From: Hyphomonadaceae bacterium
Lineage (GTDB): Bacteria > Pseudomonadota > Alphaproteobacteria > Caulobacterales > Hyphomonadaceae
Assembly: GCA_030697555.1 (NCBI GenBank)
Contig: JAUYPV010000148.1
Coordinates: forward strand, 1-64,000
Direction of reading: 5' to 3'
DNA: 64,000 nucleotides
Shown here one piece after another: positions 9,654-60,309 of this stretch (position 1 is the stretch's first letter; every line of letters starts with the position of its first letter). Below the pieces are notes generated by a model, which saw only the letters and a list, made by a program, of their open reading frames with translations, ran no database searches and was not told where the DNA came from. The position numbers and the translations under genes were made by a program.

Positions 9654-9668
9654 GTTATGAGCCATCAT
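9654..9668. promoter_or_regulatory. Regulon palindrome site: GTTAT-GAGCC-ATCAT (module A)
   Basis: Member of the GTTAT-N5-ATAAC family described in the findings. It directly follows the predicted -10 box, so a bound repressor would block transcription start. Confidence 0.55.
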
Positions 9669-9694
9669 TAACTGGCGGGTCTTGAGGCCTGTAA

Positions 9695-10642
9695 ATGAAG
9701 GATTTGCTGGATCGTCGCGAGGTAGTGGGACTGGCCGGAGCGGCAGGTGTGGCGGTGTTGGCCGGATGCGCCGGCGGGCTTCAGTCCGGCGCCGTTCCGG
9801 GCAAGACGGCAGGCGAACTGGACGTGGTCGAGCTTGCGCCTGGGGTGAAGCTGATCTCCGGAGCAGGTTCCAACGTGCTGGCGGTGGCCGGGCCAGAGGG
9901 CGCGCTGCTGGTCGATGGCGGCCTTGCCCAGCATGCGCCGGGCCTCATCCAGCGGGCGCTGGCCGAGACTGGCTCCGGCAAGATTGCCCGGCTGATCAAC
10001 ACCCACTGGCATCTTGAAGCGACCGGAGCCAACGACCTGCTGGGCGCGAAAGGCACACCAATCCTCGCGCACGAGAACACGCGGCTGTGGATGGGGACCG
10101 AGATCAGCTCACGCTGGCAGGATGAGGTCTATCCGCCCAGAGTCCTCAAAGCGCGGCCGACCGAGACCTTCTACACCACGAAAGAGATCGTTCTGGGCGG
10201 AGAGAGCATTGAACTCGGCCATCTACTGCAGGCCCACACCGATGGCGACATCTACGTCCGCCTGCGCCAAGCCAACGTCATTGCCGCTGGCGGCGTCCTC
10301 TCCGGCCAGGGCTGGCCGATCATCGACTGGCAGACTGGAGGATGGATCGGCGGGATGGTGCGCGGACTCGAAACACTGATCGCGCAAACCGACGACTCCA
10401 CGCTCATCGTGCCCGCTGACGGAGCGCCGCTCAAACGGCAGGACCTCGTCAAGCAGCGCGACATGTATGTCACGATCATGGGTCGCCTGAAGACCATGAT
10501 GGAAAGCGGCTTCAGCGCCGACAAGGTCGTGGCAGGTGCGCCGGCGAAGGAATTCGAGGCCGAGCGCGGAGATGCCTCCGAATTTCTGCGCCTGGCGTTC
10601 AGAAGTTTCTGGGGACACGTCCGCCAGTTCGACGTGGTTTGA
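9695..10642 (+). CDS. Exported MBL-fold protein with altered metal motif (module A)
   Basis: A 315-residue metallo-beta-lactamase-fold protein. The N-terminus DRREVVGLAGAAG resembles a Tat signal, and VLAGC (C25) a lipobox, so it is probably a periplasmic lipoprotein. The usual HxHxDH metal motif is H104-W-H106-L-E108-A109: the aspartate is glutamate and the last histidine alanine. H126 (AHENTR) and H181 (HTDGD) remain. Paralogue B has the same change (HWHPEA). It may bind one metal ion or none. GAGG lies 8 bases before the ATG. It begins a + strand module, with the DUF1592 gene following after 8 bases. Confidence 0.8.
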   Translation: MKDLLDRREVVGLAGAAGVAVLAGCAGGLQSGAVPGKTAGELDVVELAPGVKLISGAGSNVLAVAGPEGALLVDGGLAQHAPGLIQRALAETGSGKIARLINTHWHLEATGANDLLGAKGTPILAHENTRLWMGTEISSRWQDEVYPPRVLKARPTETFYTTKEIVLGGESIELGHLLQAHTDGDIYVRLRQANVIAAGGVLSGQGWPIIDWQTGGWIGGMVRGLETLIAQTDDSTLIVPADGAPLKRQDLVKQRDMYVTIMGRLKTMMESGFSADKVVAGAPAKEFEAERGDASEFLRLAFRSFWGHVRQFDVV

Positions 10643-10650
10643 GGTAAGCG

Positions 10651-13083
10651 ATGCGTTTCAAGCTGCCCCTCGCAATTTCCGCTCTCGCGCTTGTGGCGAC
10701 GGGTGCGCTGTGGGGCGCCTCTGCGCAGGACAAGGGCCCGGCGGTTGCGCGTCCGTTCGAGCGATTGGCTGAAGGATCCGAGCACTGGAAGCTGCTGCAG
10801 GGAAACTGCATCGCCTGCCACAACACCGCCTTCAAGTCCGGCGGCATCGCCTTCGATGCGATGAAACCGGAGACAGTGGGCGAGAACGCCGAGACCTGGG
10901 AGAAAGCCGTACGCAAGCTCCGCGGCCGGATGATGCCGCCGCCCGGGGCCCCGCGTCCGGACGAGGCCAAGACAGAAGCCTTCATCGGCTGGCTCGAAGC
11001 CTATCTCGATCATGCAGCAGCTGAGCACCCCGATCCGGGCCGGGTCGCTCTGCACCGGCTGAACCGGAAGGAATACGCCAACGCGGTGCGCGACCTGCTG
11101 GCGCTCGACATCGACGCAGCAGCCCTCCTGCCGCAGGACGATGTCTCCGACGGCTTCGACAATGTCGCCGACGTCCTCCAGGTCTCGCCTTCTTTCCTCG
11201 ACCAGTACATCTCCGCGGCCAGAACCCTTGCTGTTCAGGCCGTCGGACAACGCACCCTCAAGACTTCGACGGTCAGCCTCCGTCCCCCAGCCGGCGTCAG
11301 CCAGTCCGCCCATATCGAAGGCCTGCCGCTCGGCACGCGCGGCGGCTTCCTTGTCACTCATGCTTTCCCGGCCGACGGCGAGTATCAGCTCTCATTTGGC
11401 GGCGCCGGCGCCGACGTCTATGACAACCCGGTGCTGGACGAGCGCTTCATCGCTCTCCTCGACGGGAAGATCATTTTCGATTCAGCCAAGGCCGGCGCAG
11501 CAGAGCAGGGCGCCTCCGAAGCAGCTCCCCTCGGAACCAGAGGCCGAGGCCGGCGCACAAATGTCCGCCTCCATATTCCGGCCGGCACGCACGAGATCGG
11601 CGCCGCCTACGTCGCCAAAAGCTATCCGGCCTCGCTCTCTCTTCTCGCCGCGCTCAATTCAAGAGGCGGCGCGGCGGGCGCTGCGATAAGCGGCGTCGAT
11701 ATCACCGGCCCCTACAACGCCGTCGGCCTCGGCGTCTCTCCGAGCCGCGATCGCATCTTCATCTGCCGCCCGGCTTCGACAGCCGATGAAATCCCGTGCG
11801 CGAAAAAGATATTCTCCTCCCTTACCCGGAAAGCCTTCCGGCGTCCCGTGACCGATGCTGGCCTCGAAGCCCCGCTGCGCTTCTTCCGCGATGGCCGCAA
11901 GCGCGCCGGATTCGAGACCGGCGTCGAGCAGGGGATCATGGCGATCCTCGCCAGCCCGAAATTCCTCTACCGCGCCACCAGCGTTCCCGCCGGGATCGAG
12001 CCCGGCGCGGCCTATCAGCTGAACGATCTCGACCTCGCCTCGCGGCTCTCCTTCTTCCTCTGGAGCAGCCTCCCCGACGAAGAACTGCTGTCCCTCGCCG
12101 AGGCCGGCCGTCTCAGGGACTCCAGCGTGCTCGAAGCCCAGGTCCGGCGCATGCTGGCGGACAAGCGCGCCGGCGCCCTGGTCACCAATTTCGGCTTCCA
12201 GTGGCTGGATGTGGCCGGCATCGACACCATCGATCCCGATCCCGCGATCTACCCGGAATTCGACGCGGACCTGCGCTTCGCCTTCAAGGAAGAGATGCGC
12301 CTCTTCCTCAACAGCATTCTCCTCGAAGACCGCAACGTCGTGAACCTGCTGACCGCCGACTACACTTATCTCAATGAGCGCCTCGCACGGCACTACGGAA
12401 TTCCGAACGTCACGGGCAACCGCTACCGCAAGATCCATCTTGCCGATTCCAGCCGCAATGGACTGCTCGGCAAGGGCAGCATCCTGATGTTCACGTCCTA
12501 TCCCAACCGCACCGCGCCGGTGCTGCGTGGCGCCTGGATCCTCGAGAACATCACCGGCACGCCGCCCAGCCCGCCGCCGCCGGACGTCGAAGCGCTTCAG
12601 GAGAACGAGGACGGCAAGGAAGCGCTGTCGATGCGCGCGCTTATGGAACGGCACCGCTCCAGTCCGACCTGCAATTCCTGCCACGGCGTGATGGACCCGC
12701 TCGGCTTCGCGCTTGAGAATTTCGACGCCATCGGCGCCTGGCGAGACAAGGACCGCTATGCTCGTACGCTGATCGACTCCTCGGGCGAACTCATCACCGG
12801 CCAGAAGCTCGACGGCGTCAACGAACTGCGCAACGCGCTGGCGGCGAAGCCCGACCAGTTCGTCCAGACCTTCACGGAAAAGCTCATGACCTTCGCCCTC
12901 GGCCGCAAGGTCGAGCATCACGACATGCCGGCGGTGCGCGCCATCGTCCGCGCCGCCGCGAAGGAGGATTATCGCCTCTTCGCGATCGTCATGAACATTG
13001 TGAAGAGCGACCAGTTTCAGATGTCGAAGGCGCCCGGCGAGCCGGGACCAAAGACAAAGCAGAAATCGGCTCAGCAACGCTGA
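10651..13083 (+). CDS. DUF1592-family periplasmic cytochrome-like protein (module A)
   Basis: An 810-residue secreted protein: signal peptide (cleavage likely near GASAQD), a c-type heme motif CIACH (53-57), then the DUF1587/1595/1592/1588/1585 domain series known from planctomycetes and proteobacteria. A second heme-like motif CNSCH lies at 674-678, followed by [14 protein letters not shown]. Biochemical function of the family is unknown; the domains suggest an electron-carrying periplasmic enzyme or partner. The first about 185 codons are almost identical in DNA to module B, after which the genes diverge. It is always paired here with a DUF1552 gene, which follows 53 bases downstream. Confidence 0.85.
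10690..11211. repeat. Near-identical inverted DNA block shared with 24104-24633
   Basis: Compared by eye, the DUF1592 N-terminal coding sequences of modules A and B agree at nearly every base, including third codon positions, from the signal peptide to GACCAGTACAT. Similarity then drops abruptly to protein level only. Such a sharp edge suggests recent gene conversion between the inverted copies. Confidence 0.85.
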
Positions 13084-13136
13084 GGCGAGGCGGATCGCAG
13101 GTTCAACCCGCGACCGCGACTAGGAGGAGACGGCGG

Positions 13137-14459
13137 ATGTACATAACGAAGAAGCACCTGTCGCGGCGGACGTTGCTGCGCGGAGCGGGCGCCGGCCTTG
13201 CCCTGCCGTTCCTCGACGCGATGGTCCCGGCGCAGACGGCTCTCGCCAAGACAGCGGCGGCGGCGAAGCCCCGCCTCGCCTTCGTCTACTTCCCGCACGG
13301 CGCCATCATGGACCGCTGGACGCCAACAGCGGCGGGCCGCGACTTCGAGATGACGCCGATCCTGACGCCGCTCGCCAAGTATCGCGAGAAAATGACGATC
13401 GTCTCGGGCCTCCACAACAAGGCAGGCGAAAGCCCGTCGCCGCACGCCATCACCTCGGGCACCTGGCTAAGCTGCGTTGCGCCGCGCATCAGCCACAGCC
13501 CCTTCGGCGGCGTCACGGTCGACCAGATCGCCGCCAGGCAAGTCGGACAGGACACCACCTTCCCCTCGCTCGAAGTCTCGACCGAACCCGGCTCGACCGG
13601 CGGCAATGGCTGCGACCGCAACTATGGCTGCAGCTACGGCTCGACGATCTCCTTCCGCACGCCGAGCCAGCCCCTGCCGATGGAGAACAATCCCCGCAAG
13701 CTGTTCTATCGCCTGTTCGGCGTCGGCGACACGGCGGAGGAGCGCGCCATCGCCGCCAATCAGTATGCCAGCCTGCTCGACCTGGTGTCGGACGAAGCCA
13801 AGACGCTTCAGCTCTCGCTGGGCGCCCAGGACCGCGCGATGGTGAGCGACTATCTGAGTTCCGTCCGCGAGATCGAACAGCAGGTAAAGAAAGCGGAAGA
13901 GCAGGATCTCTCCAAGCTGAAGCTGCCGAACGTTCCCACCGGCGTGCTGCCGGACTTCGACGCCCGGCTCAACCTGATGTTCGATATTCTCGCCTTGGCC
14001 TACCAGGGCAATCTCACGCGCGTCGTCAACATGATGATCGCGAACGAGGGCAGCGGGCAGACCTACAATCATGTCGGCGTGCCCGACGCCTTCCACCCGC
14101 TATCGCACCACCAGAACAGCGCTGCGAAGATCGATCGCCTGACCAAGATCCAGACCTACCATTCGACGGTGTTCGCCAAATTCCTCGACAAGCTGGCGGC
14201 GACGTCCGACGGCGAGAACTCGGTGTTCGACAACGCGATCATTCTCTACGGTTCGAACATGAGCAATTCCAACAAGCACGACCACTATCCGTTGCCGTCG
14301 GCCGTGTTCGGCGGCGGCTGCGGCAAGCTCAAGGGCGGCCAGCACATCAAGGCCGAGAACCACACCCCGCTCGCCAACCTCCATCTCACCCTGCTCGACC
14401 GTGCCGGCGTCAGAGCTGACTCGTTCGGCGACTCGACCGGCCGGTTCTCGGAGCTCTGA
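13137..14459 (+). CDS. DUF1552 family Tat-exported protein (module A)
   Basis: A 440-residue protein of the DUF1552 family, which accompanies DUF1592 proteins in many genomes. The N-terminus KKHLSRRTLLRGAGAGLALP is a twin-arginine signal, so it is exported folded. Family landmarks include FVYFPHGAIMDRW, TYNHVGVPDAFHPLSHHQN and DNAIILYGSNMSNSNKHDHY, with a histidine-rich stretch that may bind metal; the family resembles DUF1501/sulfatase-like folds. The function is unknown. A GGAGG-type ribosome-binding site lies about 8 bases before the ATG. The next gene starts inside its stop codon (TGATG). Confidence 0.85.
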   Translation: MYITKKHLSRRTLLRGAGAGLALPFLDAMVPAQTALAKTAAAAKPRLAFVYFPHGAIMDRWTPTAAGRDFEMTPILTPLAKYREKMTIVSGLHNKAGESPSPHAITSGTWLSCVAPRISHSPFGGVTVDQIAARQVGQDTTFPSLEVSTEPGSTGGNGCDRNYGCSYGSTISFRTPSQPLPMENNPRKLFYRLFGVGDTAEERAIAANQYASLLDLVSDEAKTLQLSLGAQDRAMVSDYLSSVREIEQQVKKAEEQDLSKLKLPNVPTGVLPDFDARLNLMFDILALAYQGNLTRVVNMMIANEGSGQTYNHVGVPDAFHPLSHHQNSAAKIDRLTKIQTYHSTVFAKFLDKLAATSDGENSVFDNAIILYGSNMSNSNKHDHYPLPSAVFGGGCGKLKGGQHIKAENHTPLANLHLTLLDRAGVRADSFGDSTGRFSEL

Positions 14460-15955
14460 TGCGGCGCGCCGCGGCAGCGATCCTCGCGTTTGTGCTGGCG
14501 GCGCCTGCCTGGGCCGAACCGACGCTGATAGCAGCCGTGCGTTCGGGCGATCGCGCAGCCGCCCGCGCCCTGATCGCGAAGGGCGTCGACGTCAACGCGC
14601 CCGATGCGGACGGCGCAACGGCGCTGCTGTGGGCGGTCCACAATGACGACGCCGAACTCGTCCGCGCGCTGATCGCAGCGAAGGCCGACGTCAAGAAGAC
14701 GAACGAATTCGGCGCGACGCCGATACAGGAAGCGGCCGTCACCGGAAATGTCGAGGTGCTGAAGGCGCTGCTCGATGCCGGCGCTGACGCCAATGTTGCG
14801 ACGCCCGAAGGCCAGACGCCGCTGATGGTGATCGCGCGCACCGCCAATGTCGAAGCAGCCAGACTGCTGCTGGCCCAAGGCGCCAACGTCAACGCAAAGG
14901 AAGTCCTTGAGAACCAGAGCGTCCTGATGTGGGCGGTCGACCGCAACCAGCCGGAAATGGCGAAGCTCCTGATCGCAAACGGCGCCGACGTGAACGCCCG
15001 CACCAAAGCCCACGAACCGGAAGTCCGTGTCAGCGCCGAGCCTCGCGTACGCTACGAGCCCTCCGGCGGCCTGACCCCGCTTCTCTATGCGGCGCGCGAA
15101 GGCTGCCTCGCCTGCGCGCGCTCGCTGGTCGAGGCCGGCGCCAAGACCGACGCCTACGAGCCCGACGGCGTCACGCCGCTGATCATGGCGATCACCAACA
15201 CGCACTTCGATCTTGCGGCCTACCTGATCGAAAAAGGCGCCGATGTGAACCGCTGGGACTGGTGGGGCCGCAGTCCGCTCTACGCAGCCGTCGACTACAA
15301 TACCATCCCGCGCGGCGGCCGGCCGGATCGCCCGACGCTCGACGAGACGACGCCGCTCCAGATGATCGAGATCCTGCTCAAGGCCGGCGCCAATCCCAAC
15401 CTGCAGCTGAAATTTCCGCCGCCGTTCCGCGATGTCGGCGCCGATCGCGGCGGCGACCTCATGCTGACCACCGGCGCAACCCCGCTCCTGCGCGCCGCAA
15501 AGGCGGGTGACGCCGCCGCCGTGAAGCTGCTGCTGGCGGCGGGCGCCCGCACCGATCTTTCCGTCGCGCGGGCCTGGAAGGACAATGTCGGCGGCATCAC
15601 GCCGCTGATGGCCGCGGCCGGCCTCGGCTACCAGCTCAACGACACGCGCGGAAAACTGAAGACCGAGGCGCAGGCCATCGAAACGATCAAGCTCCTCCAG
15701 GCCGCCGGCGCCGACATAAATGCGCGCGACGATCGCGGCCATACGGCTCTCTTCGGCGCGGTGTTCCGCGGCTGGACCGAAGTCGCCCGCTTCCTCGCCG
15801 AGAGCGGCGCAAAGCTCGATGCGAAGAACAATGACGGCGTCACGCTGATGGATGTCGCCAAGGGAAAGATGGAAGTCTTCCGCGGCCAGACCATCGATTC
15901 CAATCCGGACATGGCGCCGCTGCTGGAGCAACTGGCTACAAAGAGAACGCCGTAA
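14459..15955 (+). CDS. Secreted ankyrin-repeat protein (module A)
   Basis: A 498-residue protein with a signal peptide (cleavage near APAWAE) and about ten ankyrin repeats (units such as GATALLWAVHNDDAELVRAL). The regular repeats are interrupted by a conserved CxxC element (EGCLACARSL) and by a segment containing GRSPLYAAVDYNT...GGRPDRP and NLQLKFPPP...DRGGD, also present in the module B paralogue. This non-repeat part may be the functional surface. Export suggests a periplasmic binding or scaffold role for the neighbouring cytochrome and DUF1552 proteins; that is inference. It is translationally coupled to the DUF1552 gene. Confidence 0.85.
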   Translation: MRRAAAAILAFVLAAPAWAEPTLIAAVRSGDRAAARALIAKGVDVNAPDADGATALLWAVHNDDAELVRALIAAKADVKKTNEFGATPIQEAAVTGNVEVLKALLDAGADANVATPEGQTPLMVIARTANVEAARLLLAQGANVNAKEVLENQSVLMWAVDRNQPEMAKLLIANGADVNARTKAHEPEVRVSAEPRVRYEPSGGLTPLLYAAREGCLACARSLVEAGAKTDAYEPDGVTPLIMAITNTHFDLAAYLIEKGADVNRWDWWGRSPLYAAVDYNTIPRGGRPDRPTLDETTPLQMIEILLKAGANPNLQLKFPPPFRDVGADRGGDLMLTTGATPLLRAAKAGDAAAVKLLLAAGARTDLSVARAWKDNVGGITPLMAAAGLGYQLNDTRGKLKTEAQAIETIKLLQAAGADINARDDRGHTALFGAVFRGWTEVARFLAESGAKLDAKNNDGVTLMDVAKGKMEVFRGQTIDSNPDMAPLLEQLATKRTP

Positions 15956-20848: not shown

Positions 20849-20851
20849 CGA

Positions 20852-22162: not shown

Positions 22163-22204
22163 CCGCCGTCTCCTTCCCAACTTCCTCAGCTCGCCGCCCT
22201 CAAC

Positions 22205-25702: not shown

Positions 25703-25717
25703 ATGATGGATCATAAC
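25703..25717. promoter_or_regulatory. Regulon palindrome site (minus reading GTTAT-GATCC-ATCAT, module B)
   Basis: It lies just after the predicted -10 (25724-25719, TAGGAT) and -35 (25746-25741, TTGTGC) of module B, the same geometry as in module A. Confidence 0.55.
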
Positions 25718-35636: not shown

Positions 35637-35637
35637 C

Positions 35638-37790: not shown

Positions 37791-37803
37791 GGGAGGGATC
37801 ATC

Positions 37804-39219: not shown

Positions 39220-39250
39220 ACACAGGATCGGGCAAGCCAAGGAGGCTGAC

Positions 39251-41659: not shown

Positions 41660-43156
<1,497 letters not shown>

Positions 43157-45073: not shown

Positions 45074-45078
45074 GGCCC

Positions 45079-46031: not shown

Positions 46032-46032
<1 letters not shown>
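45079..46032 (-). CDS. ligC: 4-Carboxy-2-hydroxymuconate-6-semialdehyde dehydrogenase (LigC)
   Basis: A 317-residue Gfo/Idh/MocA-fold oxidoreductase, which identifies LigC (unlike normal aldehyde dehydrogenases). The Rossmann motif is VLAGAGAFGLKHLDAI, followed by ILATPTQMHAAQAIQCMKAG and VEIPLADSWADS. It oxidises the LigAB ring-cleavage product, as its cyclic hemiacetal, to 2-pyrone-4,6-dicarboxylate. Its ATG shares one base with the ligB stop (TGATG). Length matches the characterised LigC. Confidence 0.9.
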
Positions 46033-47258
<1,226 letters not shown>

Positions 47259-47259
<1 letters not shown>

Positions 47260-51194: not shown

Positions 51195-51878
51195 CTAGTC
51201 CTGGCTCTTCACGTATTTGAGGCCCTTCTCGGCCAGGCGTTCGCGCATCCTGTAGAGATCGAGCCCAAGCACGCCGGCATTGAGCTTGGCGCGCTTTTCC
51301 TCTTCATCGGCCTCACGCTTGCGCGCCTTGGCGAGCACATCCGCCGCCTCGCCCTTGCGTACGACCACGACGCCATCGTCATCGGCTACGATCAGGTCGC
51401 CCGCATTCACAAGCTGCCCGGCGCAGACGACGGGCGTGTTCACATCGCCGATTGTCTCCTTGACCGTCCCCTGGGCGAAGATCGCCTTGGACCAGACCGG
51501 GAACTGCATCTTGGTCAGCTCCGCCGCATCGCGCACGCCGGCGTCGATCACCAGGCCGATCACGCCATGCGCCATCAGAGATCCGGCCAGAAGGTCGCCG
51601 AAATAGCCGTCCTCGCAGGGGCTGGTCGGTGCGACCACCAATACATCGCCCGGCCGGCATTGCTCCACGGCGACGTGAATCATCCAGTTGTCGCCTGGCG
51701 CCACCGAACAGGTCACAGCCGGGCCAGCAATGTGAGCCGGCCGATAGACCGGGCGCATGTGCGAAGCGAGAAGGCCCTTGCGCCCCTGCGCCTCGTGCAC
51801 TGTCGCTACGCCGATCGCGCCGAAACCCTCGGCGATCTTCGCGTTCACGCGGCTGATGTCCGTCACGACGATGGGCAT
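51195..51878 (-). CDS. ligK: 4-Carboxy-4-hydroxy-2-oxoadipate aldolase/oxaloacetate decarboxylase (LigK)
   Basis: A 227-residue class II aldolase of the RraA/HMG-aldolase fold that splits 4-carboxy-4-hydroxy-2-oxoadipate into pyruvate and oxaloacetate, the last step of the pathway. Typical segments are [39 protein letters not shown] and AGVRD, whose arginine and aspartate bind substrate and metal. The start [10 protein letters not shown] (51878) follows a GGGAGAAAG sequence about 11 bases upstream. It is the first gene of a nine-gene minus-strand operon running to 44078. Confidence 0.9.
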
Positions 51879-51976
51879 GGGGTGTTCTTTCTCCCTATCC
51901 GGCGCCTCCGCGAGCAACAGCGGCGCCCTTCATTCTAGCCCATTTCCGCGCCCAATTCCCCTATCCGGCCAAATTG

Positions 51977-51991
51977 GTTGTTTCATATAAC
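51977..51991. promoter_or_regulatory. Regulon palindrome site (minus reading GTTAT-ATGAA-ACAAC, lig operon)
   Basis: It lies in the gap between pobA and ligK, about 100 bases upstream of ligK. One half-site is perfect and the other has one mismatch. It suggests that the lig operon has its own controlled promoter apart from any read-through from pobA. Confidence 0.5.
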
Positions 51992-52016: not shown

Positions 52017-53213
52017 TCAGGGCGATAGCGGCAGTCCGGCATAGTTCTCCGCCAGCGCCGTTTGCGCCGCGCGGGAGCGGGAGAGATAGGCCATTTCGGC
52101 GATCTGCAGCTTGCGTTCGATCGGCGTGGCGGTCGGAAACCGGTGGGTCAGATGCGTGAACCACCAGGAAAACCGCTCGGCCTTCCACACCCGCGACAGG
52201 GCCCTGCCGGAATACCCGTCCACCCCGGCCATCGATCCGGTCCGGCAATAATCGGTCAGCGCTTCCGACAGGAACAGGGCATCCGAAGCGGCAAGGTTCA
52301 GCCCCTTGGCGCCCGTCGGCGGCACGATGTGCGCGGCATCCCCCGCCAGCAACAGCCGCCCAAACCGCATGGGTTCGCACACATAGGATCGCAAAGGCGC
52401 CATAGCGGTTTCAATCGCGGGCGCCCGCTCGAGGCCCGCCGCGATCGTCTCGCCCAGCCGGATGGCAAGCTCGCTCCAGAAGCGATCGTCGGGCCAATCC
52501 TCGAGCCTGTCCTCGGCGCCAACCTGCACGTAATACCGGCTGCGTGTGGCCGAGCGCATGCTGGCCAGCGCGAAGCCGCGCTCATGGCTGGCATAGACAA
52601 CTTCCGGCGCGCAGGGCGGAACATCGGCCAGCACGCCAAGCCAGCCGAACGGATAGATCTTCTCGTAGTCAACGAGACGCCCCGATGGAATGCTGGCCCG
52701 GCTCACGCCATGAAACCCGTCGCATCCCGCGATGAACTCGCAATCGATCCGGCGCGTCTCCCCGCCCGACCTCCAGGTCACGAAAGGCCTGTCCCCCTCA
52801 ATGTCGTGCAGCGTCACATCCTCTGCGCCGAACACGACATCGAGCCCGCGCGCCGGCGCTGCATCGAACAGGTCGTGCATGATCTCCTGCTGCCCATAGA
52901 CCGTGATGTGTTTTCCCGTCAGCCCCGCGACGTCGATATGGATCAGCTCGCCATTCCACGAGATCGAGAACCCGCCATGTGGCAGTCCCTCTCGAAGGAG
53001 GCGGCCGGCTAGCCCGACCCGCTGCATTATCTCAACCGTGGTTTGCTCGATCACCCCGGCGCGCACGCGGCCCTCGACATAGGCGCGATCGCGGCGCTCC
53101 AGCACGAGGCAGTCGACGCCCTCCTGCCGCAGCAGATGCCCCAGCATCATCCCGGCAGGGCCGGCGCCGATGATGGCGATGCGGGTTCGCGAGGGAAGGT
53201 TGGAGGCGGTCAT
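52017..53213 (-). CDS. pobA: 4-Hydroxybenzoate 3-monooxygenase
   Basis: A 398-residue group A flavoprotein hydroxylase that turns 4-hydroxybenzoate into protocatechuate with NAD(P)H and O2. It shows the FAD motif IAIIGAGPAGMMLGHLL, RVRAGVIEQTTVEIM, the DG motif CDGFHGVSRASIP, and GRLLLAGDAAHIVPPTGAKG typical of PobA. Length fits the family (about 390). It lies upstream of the lig operon on the same strand and feeds its substrate. No regulon palindrome is seen in the 298 bases before it. Confidence 0.92.
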   Translation of the reverse strand: MTASNLPSRTRIAIIGAGPAGMMLGHLLRQEGVDCLVLERRDRAYVEGRVRAGVIEQTTVEIMQRVGLAGRLLREGLPHGGFSISWNGELIHIDVAGLTGKHITVYGQQEIMHDLFDAAPARGLDVVFGAEDVTLHDIEGDRPFVTWRSGGETRRIDCEFIAGCDGFHGVSRASIPSGRLVDYEKIYPFGWLGVLADVPPCAPEVVYASHERGFALASMRSATRSRYYVQVGAEDRLEDWPDDRFWSELAIRLGETIAAGLERAPAIETAMAPLRSYVCEPMRFGRLLLAGDAAHIVPPTGAKGLNLAASDALFLSEALTDYCRTGSMAGVDGYSGRALSRVWKAERFSWWFTHLTHRFPTATPIERKLQIAEMAYLSRSRAAQTALAENYAGLPLSP

Positions 53214-53511: not shown

Positions 53512-55041
53512 TCAGGTTTTCAGGAATTGCTTGCGCAGCACGTCCTTGCGCACCTTGCCTGAGCCCGTGCGGGGCAGGGCGTCGATGAAACGGATGTAGG
53601 CGGGCTGCTTGAAACGGGCGAGGCGACCCTGGCAATGGCTTCGAATCGCCTGTTCGTCAGGCGCGCCTGGAGCAGCCTGAACAAAGGCGCACCCCACCTC
53701 GCCCCAACGTTCATCCGCTACCCCGACAACAGCGGCGTCGGCGACGCCCGGCGCCTGGCGCAGCACCGCCTCGACTTCAGCTGGATAGACGTTTTCGCCG
53801 CCCGAAATGTACATGTCCTTCAGCCGATCAACGATGACATAGCTGCCATCCTCCTGCTGGCGCGCGAGATCGCCGGAGCGGAACCAGTCGCCGGACCGGC
53901 TCGCGCGCGTTGCTTCCTCCTGCCGCCAATAGCCGGGCGACACCGATGGGCCGCGCACCCAGATCTCACCGGTTTCCCCCTGCGCCACAGCCTGGCCTTC
54001 CTCGTCCGCGAGCATGAACTCGATGAAGGGCGCCGCGAAGCCGACTGAATGCGCGTTCTTCGCCATGTAGTCCCCATCGAACGGCATGTGCATCGCCGAG
54101 CCCACCTCGCTCATACCGAACCCGTTCACGAGCAGCACGCCACGCCGCTTGCATTGCAGCACCAGGTGTGGCGACAGCGGCCCTCCGCCGCTGAACAGCG
54201 CGGTCATCCGGCTCAGGTCCGCCGTCGCGAAAGAAGGATCGGCCAGCAGCGCCTCGATCATCTGCGGCACCACGAAATAGTGGGTAATCCGCAAGGTCGG
54301 ATCGCTGAGCCGCGCAAGCGTGACTGACGGCACAAAGCGATCCGAGATGAGCACGCACGCGCCCTCGAAGAGCGCGGACCGCGTGATGGCGATGAGGCCG
54401 ACCGTGTGGAACATCGGCGAATCGCAGAGCAGCACGGAATCTGGCGTCACCTTTGCGACGGCGATGAAATTGAGCGCCGAGAACAACGTGTTTTCGTGCG
54501 TTATGATCACCCCTTTCGGCCGACCGGTCGTTCCGGATGTGTACAGCAGGATGGACGGCTCCCCGAAAGCCGCAGGTGTTGGTCCGCTGGCCTCGCTGGT
54601 TTCGCCTGGCCCGGGCGTATGTGCCACTTCTTCGGGAGGCATTCGGTGCGCCACGCAACCCGCCAGTTGCGCCGCCTCCTCAACCGTCGCGGCGAATTCC
54701 TCCTGGCGAAGAATGAGCGCGGGCTCGCAATCCTTCAGCAGGACGGCGAGCTCGGTTGCGGTAAGCCGCCAGTTGAGGGGCACGAAGATCGCCCCGGCGC
54801 GGTCGCAGGCGAGAGTGATCACCGCCAGCAGCGCGCTATTGCGGGAAACTATGACGATCCGCGCGCCGCGGGCGTTCCCGAGCCGCTGAACAAAACCGCG
54901 GGCGCAGGCGTCTGCGTCGGCGGACAGGCGGCGGTAGGTGTAGGAAACTCCCGACGCAAGGTCGACGCAGGCAATCGCGTCCGGGCGGAAACGTGCGTGA
55001 AAAGCGATCGGATCAGATCCGCCGGGGAGCAATTCAGCCAT
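53512..55041 (-). CDS. ferA: Feruloyl-CoA synthetase-like acyl-CoA ligase (FerA)
   Basis: A 509-residue AMP-forming ligase. The ATP loop ILLYTSGTTGRPKGV is at about 165-179; NGFGMSEVG, DWFRSGDLARQQEDGSYVIV, DRLKDMYISGGENVYPAEVE and the terminal catalytic lysine in TGSGKVRKD complete the family motifs. It would activate ferulate or other hydroxycinnamates to CoA thioesters. Assignment to FerA rests on its place beside a MarR regulator, a hydroxycinnamoyl-CoA hydratase/lyase and vanillin dehydrogenase; the motifs alone fit many ligases. The start at 55041 is chosen because the upstream frame is not conserved-looking and overlaps a regulatory palindrome. Confidence 0.8.
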   Translation of the reverse strand: MAELLPGGSDPIAFHARFRPDAIACVDLASGVSYTYRRLSADADACARGFVQRLGNARGARIVIVSRNSALLAVITLACDRAGAIFVPLNWRLTATELAVLLKDCEPALILRQEEFAATVEEAAQLAGCVAHRMPPEEVAHTPGPGETSEASGPTPAAFGEPSILLYTSGTTGRPKGVIITHENTLFSALNFIAVAKVTPDSVLLCDSPMFHTVGLIAITRSALFEGACVLISDRFVPSVTLARLSDPTLRITHYFVVPQMIEALLADPSFATADLSRMTALFSGGGPLSPHLVLQCKRRGVLLVNGFGMSEVGSAMHMPFDGDYMAKNAHSVGFAAPFIEFMLADEEGQAVAQGETGEIWVRGPSVSPGYWRQEEATRASRSGDWFRSGDLARQQEDGSYVIVDRLKDMYISGGENVYPAEVEAVLRQAPGVADAAVVGVADERWGEVGCAFVQAAPGAPDEQAIRSHCQGRLARFKQPAYIRFIDALPRTGSGKVRKDVLRKQFLKT

Positions 55042-55076: not shown

Positions 55077-55091
55077 CTGATGATGCATAAC
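55077..55091. promoter_or_regulatory. Regulon palindrome site (minus reading GTTAT-GCATC-ATCAG, ferA)
   Basis: One perfect half-site and one partial, 36-50 bases upstream of ferA and downstream of the MarR gene on the same strand. Confidence 0.4.
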
Positions 55092-55126
55092 CATTTTCAG
55101 TCGCCGGGCAACGTCTGTCGGCCCGG

Positions 55127-55672
55127 TCACTTGCCCTTGGGCGGCGCCATGCCGAGAATTCGCACAAGCGCCGCACGGAATTCGCTGACGGACAGAGACC
55201 CGAGCGCCTTCGCCAGCGCCTGTTCATTCTCGGTGTGAGCCGAATTGGCCTGGCGCAGCAATGTCTGGCCCGCCGGTGTCAGCGTGAGCGAATAGGAGCG
55301 ACGGTCCTCCGAGTTGACCGACCGGGCGACCAAGCCTCTTTGGACGAGTTCGTTGATCAGCGCGACCAGGTTGGGCTGCTGGATGCTCAGCGTCTGGCCG
55401 ACTTCCTGTTGCTTGAGGCCGGGCTCCTCATCGATGATCAGCAGCACCGAAAAAAGACTCTGGCGCAGCCCGAGCTTGTCCAGCCGAGCGCCAAAGCGCG
55501 TCTGCGCCACGCCGCTGGCAACGCGCAACATGAACCCGATGCTGTCTCTAATGCCGGACGTCGCTAGGGGCGACGAGTCCTTCCCGAAGCGGACCTGTTC
55601 GGCTAGCCCTCCGAACCGTTCGTGCGAGCGGCTCTTGCGGCTCTTGGGAGGCGACTTTCTTCCAGCGGGCAT
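55127..55672 (-). CDS. ferC: MarR-family transcriptional regulator (FerC-like)
   Basis: A 181-residue MarR-type protein with a basic N-terminal extension of about 40 residues. The winged helix is LKQQEVGQTLSIQQPNLVAL, INELVQRGLVAR and EDRRSYSLTLTPAGQTLL. In Sphingobium SYK-6 a MarR protein, FerC, represses the feruloyl-CoA genes and is released by hydroxycinnamoyl-CoA; the context here matches. Elements of the GTTAT palindrome lie on both sides of the gene (55077 and 55734), so it is one of two candidate readers of that element. It is divergent from vanillin dehydrogenase. Confidence 0.82.
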   Translation of the reverse strand: MPAGRKSPPKSRKSRSHERFGGLAEQVRFGKDSSPLATSGIRDSIGFMLRVASGVAQTRFGARLDKLGLRQSLFSVLLIIDEEPGLKQQEVGQTLSIQQPNLVALINELVQRGLVARSVNSEDRRSYSLTLTPAGQTLLRQANSAHTENEQALAKALGSLSVSEFRAALVRILGMAPPKGK

Positions 55673-55733: not shown

Positions 55734-55748
55734 GTTATGTCGTATAAC
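55734..55748. promoter_or_regulatory. Regulon palindrome site: GTTAT-GTCGT-ATAAC (perfect; ferC/vanillin dehydrogenase)
   Basis: A perfect 5+5 dyad in the divergent gap between the MarR gene and the vanillin dehydrogenase gene, 61 and 69 bases from the two start codons. Confidence 0.6.
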
Positions 55749-55817: not shown

Positions 55818-57230
55818 ATGGCAAGCTCGTCAACAAAACTTTTCGAGCGCCGCGATCCTGTAACCGGAAATGTCGCGACCAAGACGAAAGCACTGACCCC
55901 GGAGGAAGCAGTTAAGGCTGTCGACGCGGCGGCCGCGGCTTTCCCCATCTGGTCCGCACTCGGTCCCAACGCTCGCCGCGCCGTTCTCAACAAGGCATGC
56001 GACGAACTTGCAAAGCGCGCCGACGCTTTCGTTCAGCCGATGATCGAAGAACTCGGCTGCAACGAGGGCTGGGCGCGTTTCAACGTGATGTTCGGTACAG
56101 GCCTCCTGCGCGAGGCCGCCGCGATGACCACCCAGATCGGCGGGGAAACCATCCCCTCCGACAAGCCGGGCTGCTTTGCCATGTCGATCCGCCAGCCCGT
56201 AGGGGTCTGCCTCGGCATCGCGCCCTGGAATGCGCCCGTGATTCTCGGCGTCCGCGCCGTCGCCATGCCGCTCGCCTGCGGTAACACCGTGGTCCTCAAG
56301 GCCTCGGAAATGTGCCCGCGCACGTTTGAGCTCATCGCTGAAGCCTTCCATGCTGCCGGCTTGCCGGAAGGGGCGCTGAGCCTCGTCACCAACGCGCCGG
56401 AAGACGCCGCCGATGTCGTGAATGCCCTGATCGATCATCCCGCCGTCCGGCGCATCAACTTCACGGGCTCGACCCGGGTCGGAAAACTGATCGCATTGCG
56501 CGCGGCCCAACATTTGAAGCCGGTGCTGCTCGAACTCGGCGGCAAGGCGCCGCTGATCGTTCTGGAGGACGCCGATCTCGACGAGGCGGTGAAGGCCGCG
56601 GCCTTCGGCGCCTTCATGAACCAGGGCCAGATCTGCATGTCGACCGAGAAGATCATCGTGGTCGACGCCGTGGCGGACGAGTTCGCCAAGCGGTTCGCCG
56701 CCAAGGCGAAAACACTGGTCGCCGGCGCTCCCAGGGACGGCAAGCCGCTGGCCGCCGTCGTCGACAAGAGCGCAAACGACCGCGTGCAACGCCTGATCAA
56801 GGATGCCGTCGCCAAAGGCGCCGACCATCTTGTGAAGGGCGATCCGACCGGCGTCGTGATGTCGGCCAACGTGGTGGATAAAGTGACGCCGCAGATGGGG
56901 ATCTATTCGGAAGAAACCTTCGGGCCGGTGGTTGCCATGGTGCGCGCGCGCAATGCCGATCATGCGGTCGAGCTGGCCAACGACAGCGAATATGGCCTCT
57001 CATCCTCGGTCTTCACGCGCGATATCGTGAAGGGCCTCACGATCGCCCAGAAGCTGCAGACCGGGATCGCCCACATCAACGGACCCACCGTCCATGACGA
57101 AGCCCAGATGCCGTTCGGCGGCACGAAGTCGAGCGGCTATGGCCGGTTCGGCGGCAAGGCCGGCATCGACCAGTTCACCGAGCTTCGCTGGATCACCGTC
57201 GAAACCAAGCCCGGCCACTATCCGATATAG
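55818..57230 (+). CDS. ligV: Vanillin dehydrogenase-like aromatic aldehyde dehydrogenase
   Basis: A 470-residue NAD-dependent aldehyde dehydrogenase with IAPWNAPVILGVRA, FTGSTRVGK, the general base E239 (LELGGKAP), the nucleophile C273 (NQGQICMSTEK) and EETFGPVVAMV. The PWNAPV motif and INGPTVHDEAQMPFGGTKSS are typical of vanillin/salicylaldehyde dehydrogenases. It oxidises vanillin from the FerB reaction to vanillate for LigM. The ATG at 55818 follows GGGGAG by about 8 bases; an upstream 16-residue extension is unlikely. Relatives act on benzaldehyde or salicylaldehyde, so specificity comes from context. Confidence 0.83.
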   Translation: MASSSTKLFERRDPVTGNVATKTKALTPEEAVKAVDAAAAAFPIWSALGPNARRAVLNKACDELAKRADAFVQPMIEELGCNEGWARFNVMFGTGLLREAAAMTTQIGGETIPSDKPGCFAMSIRQPVGVCLGIAPWNAPVILGVRAVAMPLACGNTVVLKASEMCPRTFELIAEAFHAAGLPEGALSLVTNAPEDAADVVNALIDHPAVRRINFTGSTRVGKLIALRAAQHLKPVLLELGGKAPLIVLEDADLDEAVKAAAFGAFMNQGQICMSTEKIIVVDAVADEFAKRFAAKAKTLVAGAPRDGKPLAAVVDKSANDRVQRLIKDAVAKGADHLVKGDPTGVVMSANVVDKVTPQMGIYSEETFGPVVAMVRARNADHAVELANDSEYGLSSSVFTRDIVKGLTIAQKLQTGIAHINGPTVHDEAQMPFGGTKSSGYGRFGGKAGIDQFTELRWITVETKPGHYPI

Positions 57231-57246
57231 GCCGGGCTGCTTTCTC

Positions 57247-57280
57247 CCCGGGCGAACGTCTGCTCAGACTTTCGCCCGGG
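57247..57280. terminator. Bidirectional hairpin at the vanillin dehydrogenase/ferB junction
   Basis: CCCGGGCGAA (57247-57256) pairs perfectly with TTCGCCCGGG (57271-57280), and the loop holds a second stem GTCTG-CT-CAGAC. The element includes the ferB stop codon, so it is partly coding. It separates two convergent genes. Confidence 0.7.
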
Positions 57281-58196
57281 CCTTGGCCGATGCGGATTTC
57301 GGTTTCTCGGCAACCGCTGGCGCCTTGGACCGGTCATAAGCAGCAAGACCGGGCTTATAGCTTTTCTCGTCGATGAACTGGCGGATGCCTTCCTTCCGGC
57401 CGTCCGTGTCGTCGTGGAAGTTTGCGGCCTCCTGGGCGCGCACGAGATAGTCCTCCGCGTTGTCGTAGGTCATCTCCTTGACCCGCCGCACCGCGTCCTT
57501 GGCGGCCTTCAGTATGATCGGGTTCTTCTTGAGGAGAATGCCGGCGAGTTCGACTACGCGCGCTTCGAGCCGCTCAAGCGGTACGGACTCATTCACGAGT
57601 CGCAGCTTCGCCGCGGTCTGTCCGTCCATCATCTCGCCGGTCAGCGAATAATACATCGCGTCGCGCAAGCTCATCAGGTCGACTGCGACCTTTGTGGCCC
57701 CGCCGCCCGGCAGGATCCCCCAGTTGATTTCTGACAGGCCGAATTTCGCTTCGTCCGCGCAAATGGCGAGGTCGCAGGCAAACAGCGGGGCGAACCCTCC
57801 GCCGAAGCACCAGCCGTTCACCATCGCGATGGTCGGCTTCTGGTACCAGCGCAGCCGGCGCCACCAGCTATAAGCCTCGCGCTGCGATTTGCGCACGGCT
57901 CCCAGGCCCTGATTCTCCGTTTCGCGGAAGTATTCCTTGAGATCCATGCCGGCAGACCAGGCGCTGCCTTCGCCTCCGAGCACGAGCACGCCGACATCCT
58001 CGCGAAACTCCAGTTCGTCGAGCACCTCCAGCATACGCCGGTTGACCTTCGGGCTCATCGCATTGCGCTTGTCGGGGCGATTGAAAAATACCCATGCGAC
58101 GCCATTGGCGACCTTGAAGGAAACGACGTCGCCGGCGCTCTCCTCCGGCTCCTGGCGTTCGGAACCGCCATCGGTCTTCATGCTGCTCAACGGCAT
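57264..58196 (-). CDS. ferB: Feruloyl-CoA (hydroxycinnamoyl-CoA) hydratase/lyase
   Basis: An approximately 310-residue crotonase-fold enzyme that hydrates feruloyl-CoA and splits it to vanillin and acetyl-CoA. It closely follows characterised hydroxycinnamoyl-CoA hydratase/lyases: FNRPDKRNAMSP, WSAGMDLKEYFRE, KPTIAMVNGWCFGGGF, ACDLAICADEAKFGLSEINWG (catalytic-type E156) and DEKSYKPGLAAYDR. The start is uncertain: the ATG at 58196 abuts GAAGGAG with no spacing, while an ATG at 58181 is 15 bases away from it. An alanine/lysine-rich tail of about 20 residues is extra. It is convergent with vanillin dehydrogenase and divergent from the transporter. Confidence 0.9.
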   Translation of the reverse strand: MPLSSMKTDGGSERQEPEESAGDVVSFKVANGVAWVFFNRPDKRNAMSPKVNRRMLEVLDELEFREDVGVLVLGGEGSAWSAGMDLKEYFRETENQGLGAVRKSQREAYSWWRRLRWYQKPTIAMVNGWCFGGGFAPLFACDLAICADEAKFGLSEINWGILPGGGATKVAVDLMSLRDAMYYSLTGEMMDGQTAAKLRLVNESVPLERLEARVVELAGILLKKNPIILKAAKDAVRRVKEMTYDNAEDYLVRAQEAANFHDDTDGRKEGIRQFIDEKSYKPGLAAYDRSKAPAVAEKPKSASAKARAKV

Positions 58197-58424: not shown

Positions 58425-58439
58425 GATATGACGCATAAT
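58425..58439. promoter_or_regulatory. Regulon palindrome site variant (minus reading ATTAT-GCGTC-ATATC, ferB side)
   Basis: A 4/5 match to the GTTAT half-site, with the C before the second half conserved. It is about 230 bases from ferB, so it is the weakest positional case. Confidence 0.35.
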
Positions 58440-58547: not shown

Positions 58548-58562
58548 AATATGATGGATAAC
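58548..58562. promoter_or_regulatory. Regulon palindrome site variant: AATAT-GATGG-ATAAC (transporter side)
   Basis: One perfect half-site; same AATAT variant as the purU/ligM site. It lies 96 bases upstream of the transporter start. Confidence 0.45.
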
Positions 58563-58657
58563 CTTTTAAGCGCTTTCGCCTTGTGTTGGCGCGCAGACGG
58601 GCAGGTTAGGGATACGACCGGACCACAGACGTCCGGACGACTACGGGGAGAAAAGCC

Positions 58658-60046
58658 ATGACGGGAATCGTGGACGCGGCGAGCGGGCGCAGCGCATCGG
58701 GCGCACGCCTCACGATCGCCCTGTGCTTCGGCGTAATGGTTATCGAAGGCTACGATATCCAGGCCCTGGGCGTCGCCGCTCCGGCCTTGGGCAAGGAACT
58801 CGGGCTCGCTCCAGCCGTCCTCGGTCAGGCCTTGTCGGCCGCCAATATCGGCCTGGTCTTCGGCGCCATCGCCGGCGGCTGGCTTGCCGATCTGGTCGGC
58901 CGCAAGCCGGTGCTGATCGGCGCAGTCGCCATATTCGGCGTCTTCACTTTGATGACGATGCAGTCGACCTCCTACGACATGCTGTTCTACGCCCGATTGC
59001 TCACGGGCCTCGGCTTCGGCGCGGCACTTCCCAACGTGATGGCCATCTCGGCCGACCTGTCGGATCCGTCCAAGCGCGGCTCCACCGCCGCCATGATGTT
59101 CTGCGGCATGCCGGTGGGCGGCAGCAGTGTTGCGCTGCTGAGCTGGCTGCAGAGCGGAAGCACCATGGTTCCGCCTTCACTGCAGGTCAGCGCCGACTGG
59201 CGTATGTTGTTCCTGATCGGCGGCGCCATCCCTCTGGTTCTGGCGCCCATCCTCCTGGTCTTCATGAAGGAGACGCAGAAGCCTGCGCGCGAGCCCGCTT
59301 CGCTGGCCAAGGCGCTGCCATGGCTGGCCGCGATTCCTTTCGGCCTGGTCTTCTGGCTCAGCCTCCGGGAACTCGGCGCCCAACCGGGCTTCGCCTCCAT
59401 AGCCGGCATCGCGCCCTGGCTCGGCGGCGTGCTCGGCATCCTCGCGGCCTACATGATCGTCCACCGCGGCCCGCTGTTCGGCGGCAACCGTGCGCTCGCG
59501 TCGGTCTTCCTCTGGGTGATCTTCTTCCCGACGCTGGTCATTCTTTATATGGTTCTCAACTGGCTACCCACTCTGGTGGCTGCCAAGGGTTTCCCGACCG
59601 AGGCCAGCCTCGCTTCGCTCATCTTCAATGCATCGAGCATATTCGGCGCGCTCATTACTGGTCTCTTTGTCGATCGCTTCGGTGTCCGTTGGCCTTTGAC
59701 GCTGTGTTTCGTCGGCCTCATCGGCGTATTGATCGCACTCGGCCAGGCGACCAGCCTCTGGCCGATCCTGATCCTCAGCGGCGGTGTCGGCTTTTTCCTG
59801 CTGGGCGCCAATTACGGCCTCTACGGCGCGGGCGCCGCCTACTATCCAGGCGAGATGCGCGGCCGCGGTTCGGGCGCCGCGGTTGCGTGGGGGCGGCTGG
59901 GCGCGGTCGCCGGTCCCCTCGTCGGCGGTCTGCTGCTACAGAGCGGCGCGGCGCCGGGAGAGGTGGTCTATTCGATGATTCCCTTCGCCGTTGTTGCCGC
60001 CGTGGGCGTTCTCCTGCTTACTTATCTTGCTCGGCAGCAGGCATAA
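58658..60046 (+). CDS. MFS aromatic acid:H+ symporter (AAHS/PcaK-like)
   Basis: A 462-residue 12-helix transporter. The first helix VMVIEGYDIQALGVAAP carries the aspartate typical of aromatic acid/H+ symporters, and the loop between helices 2 and 3 reads GGWLADLVGRKPVLIG, the family's conserved DxxGRK(R) motif. RLLTGLGFGAALPNVMAI follows in helix 4. It should take up ferulate, vanillate, protocatechuate or 4-hydroxybenzoate. It is divergent from ferB with a regulon-type palindrome upstream and a GGGGAG ribosome-binding site. Confidence 0.88.
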   Translation: MTGIVDAASGRSASGARLTIALCFGVMVIEGYDIQALGVAAPALGKELGLAPAVLGQALSAANIGLVFGAIAGGWLADLVGRKPVLIGAVAIFGVFTLMTMQSTSYDMLFYARLLTGLGFGAALPNVMAISADLSDPSKRGSTAAMMFCGMPVGGSSVALLSWLQSGSTMVPPSLQVSADWRMLFLIGGAIPLVLAPILLVFMKETQKPAREPASLAKALPWLAAIPFGLVFWLSLRELGAQPGFASIAGIAPWLGGVLGILAAYMIVHRGPLFGGNRALASVFLWVIFFPTLVILYMVLNWLPTLVAAKGFPTEASLASLIFNASSIFGALITGLFVDRFGVRWPLTLCFVGLIGVLIALGQATSLWPILILSGGVGFFLLGANYGLYGAGAAYYPGEMRGRGSGAAVAWGRLGAVAGPLVGGLLLQSGAAPGEVVYSMIPFAVVAAVGVLLLTYLARQQA

Positions 60047-60309
60047 GAGCGGCTGCCGGGGGCAGAAATGCCCATTACGTTCGCGACGTGAAAGGCGGCC
60101 CGCAGGCAAGTGCAGCTGCGGCATCGCGCCAGTGTGATGCCCTGGCTGTCCTAGAGAAATTGACAATTGCGACCGGCCAATGCCAGTTATAGGTTATAAG
60201 ACATAACGAATTTCCCACGGCGCTCCTCCCCTGCGTCGATCTAACGCCCGTTCCCAATGGAATCGTTGGGCATCGGCGCGTTTGAGTCCGAGCAAGCAAC
60301 AGGGCCCGC
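60047..60309. other. Control region of module C
   Basis: Between the transporter and the module C DUF1592 gene. It holds TTGACA at 60160-60165, an additional GTTAT at 60186-60190 and the perfect palindrome at 60193-60207. Nothing else is recognised. Confidence 0.45.
60193..60207. promoter_or_regulatory. Regulon palindrome site: GTTAT-AAGAC-ATAAC (perfect, module C)
   Basis: A perfect 5+5 dyad 103 bases upstream of the DUF1592 gene; a third GTTAT half-site lies just before it. Confidence 0.6.

Follow-up and report, generated by a model that had tools for sequence, protein, structure and literature searches.

A palindromic element recurring in a 64-kb aromatic catabolic region of a Hyphomonadaceae bacterium is a predicted operator of a FerC/HcaR/CouR-type MarR regulator

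Results

Genes and palindrome sites of the window

The sequence examined here, referred to as the window, is a stretch of 64,000 nucleotides from a Hyphomonadaceae bacterium (assembly GCA_030697555.1, contig JAUYPV010000148.1, positions 1 to 64,000). A first-pass annotation had described eleven copies of a 15-bp palindrome, GTTAT-N5-ATAAC, in gaps between its genes, and had read them as the operator of a single regulon for the uptake and degradation of aromatic compounds. The genes beside these copies are as follows, with assignments by Pfam unless stated otherwise.

9695..15955, plus strand: cluster 1, with genes for an MBL-fold protein, a DUF1592-type cytochrome protein, a DUF1552 protein and an ankyrin protein
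19361..25676, minus strand: cluster 2, the gene set of cluster 1, inverted
31486..34065, minus strand: TonB-dependent receptor, start codon at 34065 after GGGAGG
34224..35003, minus strand: IclR-family regulator (IclR_C and HTH_IclR), the rival candidate
35488..40699, plus strand: S15/PepX_C hydrolase, DUF3237, MFS and RPE65-family oxygenase genes
41753..43156, plus strand: vanillate/3-O-methylgallate O-demethylase, ligM (NCBIfam VanMgalDeMLigM, 807 bits, cut-off 580)
44078..51917, minus strand: protocatechuate 4,5-cleavage (lig) operon (LigB by NCBIfam PRK13366)
52017..53213, minus strand: 4-hydroxybenzoate 3-monooxygenase, pobA (TIGR02360, 590 bits, cut-off 538.7)
53512..55041, minus strand: acyl-CoA synthetase, ferA-like (AMP-binding; name inferred from the neighbours)
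55127..55672, minus strand: MarR-family regulator, FerC/HcaR/CouR-like, the proposed repressor (MarR, 1.2e-10)
55818..57230, plus strand: aldehyde dehydrogenase, vanillin dehydrogenase/LigV-like (Aldedh; name inferred from the neighbours)
57264..58196, minus strand: p-hydroxycinnamoyl-CoA hydratase/lyase, ferB (NCBIfam PRK09120, 469 bits, cut-off 276)
58658..60046, plus strand: MFS transporter of aromatic-acid type (MFS_1; nearest NCBIfam model MhpT, below its cut-off)
60310..63698, plus strand: cluster 3, a DUF1592-type protein and a weak glyoxalase-fold match

The ring-cleavage operon comprises genes for RraA-like, PrpF-like and DUF1932 proteins, two amidohydrolases, LigA, LigB, a LigC-like protein and an aldo/keto reductase. 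Since ferB, pobA and ligM exceed their NCBIfam cut-offs, the gene content supports the aromatic pathway named in the first-pass annotation. The aldehyde dehydrogenase is 63-69% identical to those adjoining ferB in other genomes, and the best 25 of the 106 NCBIfam matches of the ferA-like protein were all below their cut-offs.

All eleven 15-mers were present at the coordinates listed below, and exactly three of them are perfect copies. Ranks and scores are those of the matrix described in the following section.

55734..55748: perfect, between the MarR gene (minus strand, 61 bp before its start codon) and the aldehyde dehydrogenase gene (plus strand); rank 2, score 20.3
60193..60207: perfect, before cluster 3, with an overlapping partial match at 60186; rank 1, score 20.6
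35096..35110: perfect, 92 bp before the IclR gene (minus strand) and 377 bp before the S15/PepX gene (plus strand); rank 3, score 17.6
51977..51991: near-perfect (one mismatch), 98 bp before the first gene of the ring-cleavage operon (minus strand); rank 4, score 13.2
34151..34165: variant, 85 bp before the TonB receptor gene (minus strand); rank 5, score 12.6
58425..58439: variant, in the divergent ferB/MFS gap, 228 bp before ferB (minus strand); rank 6, score 12.6
41680..41694: variant, 58 bp before the ligM start codon (plus strand); rank 8, score 11.8
55077..55091: variant, 35 bp before the ferA-like start codon (minus strand), in the gap after the MarR gene; rank 10, score 9.7
58548..58562: variant, in the ferB/MFS gap, 95 bp before the MFS gene (plus strand); rank 12, score 9.2
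25703..25717: variant, 26 bp before cluster 2 (minus strand), duplicate of 9654; rank 13, score 9.1
9654..9668: variant, 26 bp before cluster 1 (plus strand), duplicate of 25703; rank 15, score 8.5

Every site lies in a gap, although non-coding sequence makes up only 6.0% of the window by our gene list, and this holds with the revised start codons (TonB receptor 34065, ferA 55041, aldehyde dehydrogenase 55818, ferB 58196, ligM 41753 and ring-cleavage operon 51878). The number of transcription units given earlier, eleven, needed adjustment: the sites occupy ten gaps, 58425 and 58548 sharing one, and they mark about twelve units because 55734 and the 58425/58548 pair are situated between divergent genes. 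Each site does precede a gene or operon, with the 51977 site placed after pobA and before the ring-cleavage operon, and pobA itself downstream of the 55077 site. Of the proposed common form GTTAT-NNNNC-ATNAN, the C-A-T at positions 10-12 was found in 10 of the 11 sites, but the A at position 14 in only seven. In the variants one GTTAT half is intact or nearly so, and the opposite half retains mainly xATATG or xxGATG. Sites 9654 and 25703 are part of one duplicated segment (66-92% identity per 50-bp block, 9617 to 10352); as their promoters belong to the duplication, the two count as a single observation.

Number and placing of the sites

Allowing two mismatches to the palindrome, the window contains 13 matches against 3.47 expected, a number reached in none of 100 shuffles. 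The two beyond the listed eleven are 60186, which overlaps 60193, and 4689, inside a gene. We then scored the window with a symmetric matrix built from 27 foreign sites, none of them from the window (their origin is described below). Among 63,986 positions, this matrix placed the eleven sites at ranks 1-6, 8, 10, 12, 13 and 15; the remaining four of the top 15 were 60186 and three positions within genes (32940, 60801 and 48283). These ranks are in part to be expected, because the sites had been picked by likeness to the palindrome, and the independent evidence is their number and their position in gaps.

Among the top 14 non-overlapping matrix matches, 11 were in gaps. In 300 permuted matrices the mean was 1.9 and the maximum 10, so that none reached 11, and the reversed matrix placed only four of its top matches in gaps. 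With a threshold of 8.4, the gaps held 12 matches, compared to a mean of 0.46 and a maximum of 4 in 1000 dinucleotide shuffles of the gaps. As a further control we used 318,139 bases of the same genome in 20 stretches, 16 of them contigs picked by number and four (C96, C98, C122 and C145) that had surfaced in earlier searches. This control contained 14 matches scoring at least 8.4, or 2.8 per 64 kb where the window has 15, and no match of at least 15, against three in the window. The motif ATNNNNNATAACNAT occurs 10 times in the genome, six of them in the window, with seven forward and three reverse occurrences against none and one for the reversed control. A promoter scan of 51800-60500 gave one sigma-70-like site, with 1.2 in shuffles.

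The element before ferB-linked MarR genes in other genomes

Foreign loci were collected around ferB, as the best 80 of at least 589 ferB relatives, and the same-genus locus L017 was dropped before sites upstream of MarR homologs were counted. As a result, 37 of the 62 foreign MarR homolog matches (E<=1e-6) were found to carry, within 400 bp upstream, a site at most one mismatch from GYTATN5ATARC, representing 27 distinct sequences. The element takes the form GTTATG-N3-CATAAC or GCTATG-N3-CATAGC, and many of these sites have AT-type flanks resembling those in the window. The reversed GTTAT control never came closer than two mismatches upstream of the same MarR genes. A site scoring at least 15 is present in 53 of the 80 ferB loci, many of which also fed the matrix.

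In at least 11 of the 80 loci (L035, L036, L052, L054, L055, L061, L072, L077, L087, L090 and L091) the order is MarR gene, site, aldehyde dehydrogenase gene and ferB, as at 55734. The key support for an operator is that one element, G(T/C)TATG-N3-CATA(A/G)C, recurs before MarR genes adjoining ferB in many alphaproteobacteria.

A class-wide sample chosen without regard to ferB comprised 29 foreign loci from part of the matches, of which the 28 with a tblastn match at 1e-6 were counted. Seven of these MarR homologs had a site of at least 17, a score that random 500-bp windows of ferB loci reach in 1.4% of cases; five are new, and two (L151, which is the L035 locus, and L159, which is the L054 locus) were already in the matrix.

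Mesorhizobium-type loci display two operators 24-25 bp apart before ferB, one ACTATG and one GCTATG (L023, L030, L033, L037-L040, L049, L051, L053, L060, L065, L070, L075 and L083).

Recognition helix of the MarR regulator

The best PDB match of the window MarR is CouR from Rhodopseudomonas palustris (6c28, E 1.4e-15), and its best NCBIfam model is Saro_0803 (86.8 bits, below the cut-off of 200). The recognition helix reads IQQPN, a Pro-Asn type shared with CouR. In locus L149, the MarR helix is very close to that of CouR, and GATATGGTCCATAAC is present upstream.

We compared this helix among 83 foreign MarRs, after removal of frames with stops, identical proteins and L017. The Asn residue was present in 40 of the 41 proteins with a site of at least 15, but in 15 of the 42 without; after collapsing at 70% identity the fractions were 15/16 and 7/22. 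Among proteins with sites of at least 12, all five with Pro-Asn helices, the window protein included, have T or A at operator position 2, and 29 of the 35 with Ala-Asn helices have C at this position in at least one half. This match between helix residue and operator position, seen in a small set, hints at a readout.

Weak variant sites

The first-pass annotation had assigned all units to one regulon, and here our confidence differs among the sites. A single regulator is strongly indicated for the three perfect sites, moderately so for 34151, 41680, 51977 and 58425, and more weakly for 55077, 58548 and the 9654/25703 pair, of which we are least sure. As the 318-kb control reaches 13.9, no variant stands out by score alone; it is their joint number and gap placing that exceed chance.

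The foreign MarR genes of L149, L138, L052 and L088 are preceded by asymmetric sites that combine a GTTATG half with a GATAT(G/A) half, and the sites at 34151, 41680, 58425 and 58548 are of this kind, the outer G of the weak half being lost in three of them as well. In addition, 10 of the 11 window sites have NA(T/A) outside the better half, the three perfect sites having this flank on one side only; these bases had played no part in the first choice of sites. The sequence NATATNNNNNATAACNAT occurs without mismatch exactly twice in the genome, at 34151 and 41680, and within one mismatch at 15 places, six of them in the contig of the window, including one (4686) in a gene.

The element outside the window

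Of the four perfect palindromes in the whole genome (4,979,562 bases), three belong to the window. The remaining one, C52:25392, is flanked by two open frames; it has no CAT core, and its score is 11.1. For sites elsewhere in the genome, we viewed the surroundings of 15 places and carried out domain searches for 10; the places left out include ones on C29, C43, C48, C51, C96, C100, C101, C112, C122, C152 and C155.

One strong site, C6:35611 (18.8), is situated between an MFS gene, which adjoins an AMP-binding gene of CoA-ligase type, and a pair of pyrroloquinoline quinone (PQQ)-dehydrogenase and RPE65 genes, with thiolase, enoyl-CoA hydratase, SDR and CoA-transferase genes nearby. Two others were counted as fitting, C167:66872 (14.1) at the 5' end of a thiamine pyrophosphate-enzyme reading frame and C6:53209 (8.0) at that of a TonB receptor. 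C47:4479 (17.7) precedes a SnoaL-like gene and cannot be placed. The sites that do not fit are found upstream of a TetR gene (C9:5218), of a methionine sulfoxide reductase gene (C63:16039) and of a gene with no Pfam match (C23:31785), between AraC- and LacI-type genes (C9:13019), and inside an open frame (C32:6816). The first-pass annotation would have given up the operator if the element had been equally frequent in unrelated genes. In the window this was not the case; outside it, the picture is mixed, with several sites at unrelated genes.

Discussion

Very probably, the MarR-family protein encoded at 55127-55672 uses the palindrome as its operator and would be a repressor of the FerC/HcaR/CouR type. 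As to the class, the protein has a MarR winged helix-turn-helix, its gene adjoins those of a CoA synthetase (of inferred substrate) and ferB, and an inverted repeat common to its relatives precedes both its own and the catabolic genes. The earlier reading of the palindrome as an operator gains support from the same element before ferB-linked MarR genes elsewhere, and from the recovery of the window sites by a matrix of foreign sites only. Repression and a CoA-thioester ligand are suggested by analogy with the named relatives; the releasing ligand is probably a hydroxycinnamoyl-CoA, to which CouR of R. palustris and HcaR of Agrobacterium fabrum respond (PMC10458429). From the sequence we further infer the promoter positions, the occupancy of each weaker site and the occupancy of the sites by the window MarR.

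In the mechanism that we propose, a MarR dimer would, without substrate, bind with one winged helix per GTTATG half, close to the promoter of its own gene and to those of the catabolic units, and keep all of these off. Once ferulate or p-coumarate has entered the cell, the CoA ligase would form the CoA thioester, and the MarR would be released. This would jointly switch on uptake (TonB, MFS), side-chain removal (ferA, ferB and aldehyde dehydrogenase), O-demethylation (ligM), ring hydroxylation (pobA) and ring cleavage (lig operon).

Several observations weigh against this reading or its reach. In the window, some permuted matrices gave more matches of at least 8.4 than the real one (mean 5.5, maximum 39, real 15), and the bare match number is for this reason the weaker half of the matrix test. 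The eight variants score 8.5-13.2, inside the range of the 318-kb control (14 matches of at least 8.4, best 13.9). In the genome as a whole, GNTATNNNNNATANC occurs 11 times, three of them in the window, and its reversed control also 11 times; GTTATN5ATAAC with up to one mismatch occurs 23 times, six of them in the contig of the window, against 11 for its reversed control. A MarR at E<=1e-20 was found in only two of 105 genomes of the family, the bacterium's own included, and the only same-genus ortholog found (L017, G093 C18:40669, 63% identical over 156 amino acids) has no operator upstream, the best match there having five mismatches. This gene adjoins those of a histidine kinase and a TPR protein, and the G093 genome contains 11 matches within one mismatch, none perfect, against 16 for the reversed control. 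As the GNTATNNNNNATANC and G093 counts do not exceed their reversed controls, the enrichment is a property of the window's contig rather than of the whole genome. In the class-wide sample only seven of 28 MarR homologs had a site of at least 17. The helix test ignores phylogeny, and 15 Asn-type MarRs have no site of at least 15 in the scanned stretch; in five Asn-type loci with no upstream site (L027, L045, L047, L050 and L068), a perfect site is present elsewhere in the locus.

A chance origin, in which AT-rich promoter DNA simply yields such matches, could appeal to the 3.47 matches expected in the window at two mismatches and to looser patterns that are no commoner genome-wide than their reversed controls. 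Nevertheless, the shuffled gaps, with 0.46 matches where 12 were observed, and the near-empty reversed control of ATNNNNNATAACNAT leave this explanation with scarcely any probability. For the whole set we rejected it on the gap shuffles, the permuted matrices and the 318-kb control; single weak sites could still be due to chance. The first-pass annotation had named both the IclR (34224-35003) and the MarR as candidate regulators. Binding to palindromes of about 15 bp is known for IclR-family proteins as well, and a perfect site precedes the iclR start codon by 92 bp, so the IclR might be the main binder, with 35096 as its autoregulatory site. However, none of 14 IclR homolog matches in the ferB loci, which are distant (27-33% identity) and include several near-copies, had a site of at least 12 within 500 bp upstream, a comparison limited to such distant relatives because no homolog at E<=1e-30 was found among the other 384 genomes searched, and in other genomes the element tracks MarR genes. 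We therefore favour the MarR and regard the IclR as an improbable main binder.

The alternative with the most in its favour is a two-layered arrangement, in which the strong sites belong to the MarR and different regulators, such as a DesR-like MarR or a LigR-like LysR protein, govern ligM, the lig operon and other units, the weak matches being fortuitous or relics. In Sphingobium sp. SYK-6, DesR controls ligM and LigR the ring-cleavage genes, separately from FerC (PMC6888825, PMC12710314, PMC5048394). The control-range scores of the variants are compatible with such an arrangement, as are a four-mismatch match to the DesR IR-B box at 51976, overlapping the 51977 site, and another that touches the 55734 site. 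On the other hand, the best three matches per strand to each of the DesR boxes (IR-B/IR-M type) have four or five mismatches and none lies before ligM, by which we rejected a DesR box at that gene. An exact search for the LigR element, TTNGCN6TTAT, with near matches not sought, gave a single match in the window at 9338, and an exact LigR box before the lig operon was likewise rejected. As a set, the weak sites are placed in gaps upstream of pathway genes much more often than chance would allow, asymmetric GATAT(G/A)/GTTATG sites also precede the foreign MarR genes of L149, L138, L052 and L088, and the closest other MarR found in the genome is only 26% identical to that of the window. Taking these points together, we consider two layers rather unlikely, though well worth keeping in mind.

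With the MarR as the favoured regulator, comparison with known systems indicates that the operator is of a known kind and that the breadth of the predicted regulon is its unusual part. FerC of SYK-6 is likewise a MarR regulator of ferulate genes, with two operators (IR1 and IR2) before ferB; it is described as acting at the ferB promoter, whereas the window site additionally marks the ligM, lig, TonB and DUF1592 units. CouR of R. palustris has few targets, couA and couB (PMC10458429), and HcaR has five genes (PMC7797058), the predicted regulon here being wider than either. CouR of Rhodococcus jostii RHA1 likewise binds an inverted repeat with a 5-bp spacer at several promoters, one of them divergent, but its half-sites are ATTGA/TCAAT rather than GTTAT/ATAAC (PMC4737184). 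DesR, a MarR responding to vanillate and syringate, also has 15-bp inverted repeats, one of them before ligM, with the different half-sites GTTTG/CATAC (PMC6888825). Saro_0803 of Novosphingobium aromaticivorans, the MarR of the stilbene gene nov1, has a repeat unlike that of the window, GCAATA-N6-TATTGC (PMC10046596). LigR of N. aromaticivorans and SYK-6 activates ring-cleavage genes for several aromatics, but belongs to the LysR family and uses an activator site, TT-N-GC-N6-TTAT, at -51 to -85 (PMC12710314). A GTTATG-type operator was not printed in the covered text of the literature on FerC, CouR, HcaR, LigR and DesR. An exact-text literature search for the palindrome gave no match, which is a weak test as printed boxes are rarely written so.

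The predicted reach is unusually wide, taking in ferulate genes, ligM and the ring-cleavage operon as well as a TonB receptor and the three DUF1592/DUF1552 clusters. In its widest form, a hydroxycinnamoyl-CoA-sensing MarR would be the master switch of a whole lignin-monomer programme, including ligM, the ring-cleavage operon, TonB uptake, the second locus with CoA-ligase-type, PQQ-dehydrogenase and RPE65-family genes, and the three DUF1592-DUF1552-ankyrin clusters. We put this forward tentatively, as possible rather than probable, because all variant scores are inside the control range and the picture outside the window is mixed. Were it true, there would be a functional lead for the DUF1592 and DUF1552 families, namely that they oxidize plant phenolics or fragments of lignin outside the inner membrane, and clusters of unknown function according to Pfam would be tied to phenolic catabolism. 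A wide regulon would also mean that a sensor of substrate entry can capture units that in better-known strains have their own regulators (DesR, LigR), which would be useful for lignin-converting strains. Independently of its width, G(T/C)TATG-N3-CATA(A/G)C with AT-rich flanks provides a sequence-level definition of a ferulate-type MarR operator common to many alphaproteobacteria, and together with the matching recognition-helix feature it should make such regulons readable from genomes.

The DUF1592/DUF1552 clusters and other genes

Cluster 3 continues with DUF1552 and ankyrin genes beyond the end of the window (to 66800 of the contig), so that one contig carries three DUF1592/DUF1552/ankyrin clusters with an operator site before each. 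The DUF1592 (60310) and DUF1552 (13137) proteins had no match at E<=1e-15 within the 80 ferB loci, and a search for literature combining at least two of DUF1592, DUF1552, DUF1588 and DUF1585 found only work on Pseudomonas putida design. Clusters 1 and 2 are inverted copies flanking a PQQ-dehydrogenase gene (16041-18245). In the MBL-fold duplication, 50-bp blocks are 80-92% identical, except for one block of 66% (10167-10216 and its copy near 25.2 kb); the best local alignment ends at 10352, so the ends of the two proteins may not be alike.

Downstream of the TonB receptor and on the same strand, 25770-31421 contains alpha and beta genes of a Rieske-type ring-hydroxylating dioxygenase along with SnoaL-like, aldehyde dehydrogenase and amidohydrolase genes. 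The genome also harbours two genes of the RPE65/carotenoid-oxygenase family, one at 39152-40699 and the other downstream of the C6:35611 site (L128:17897-19357), which may be lignostilbene-type dioxygenases.

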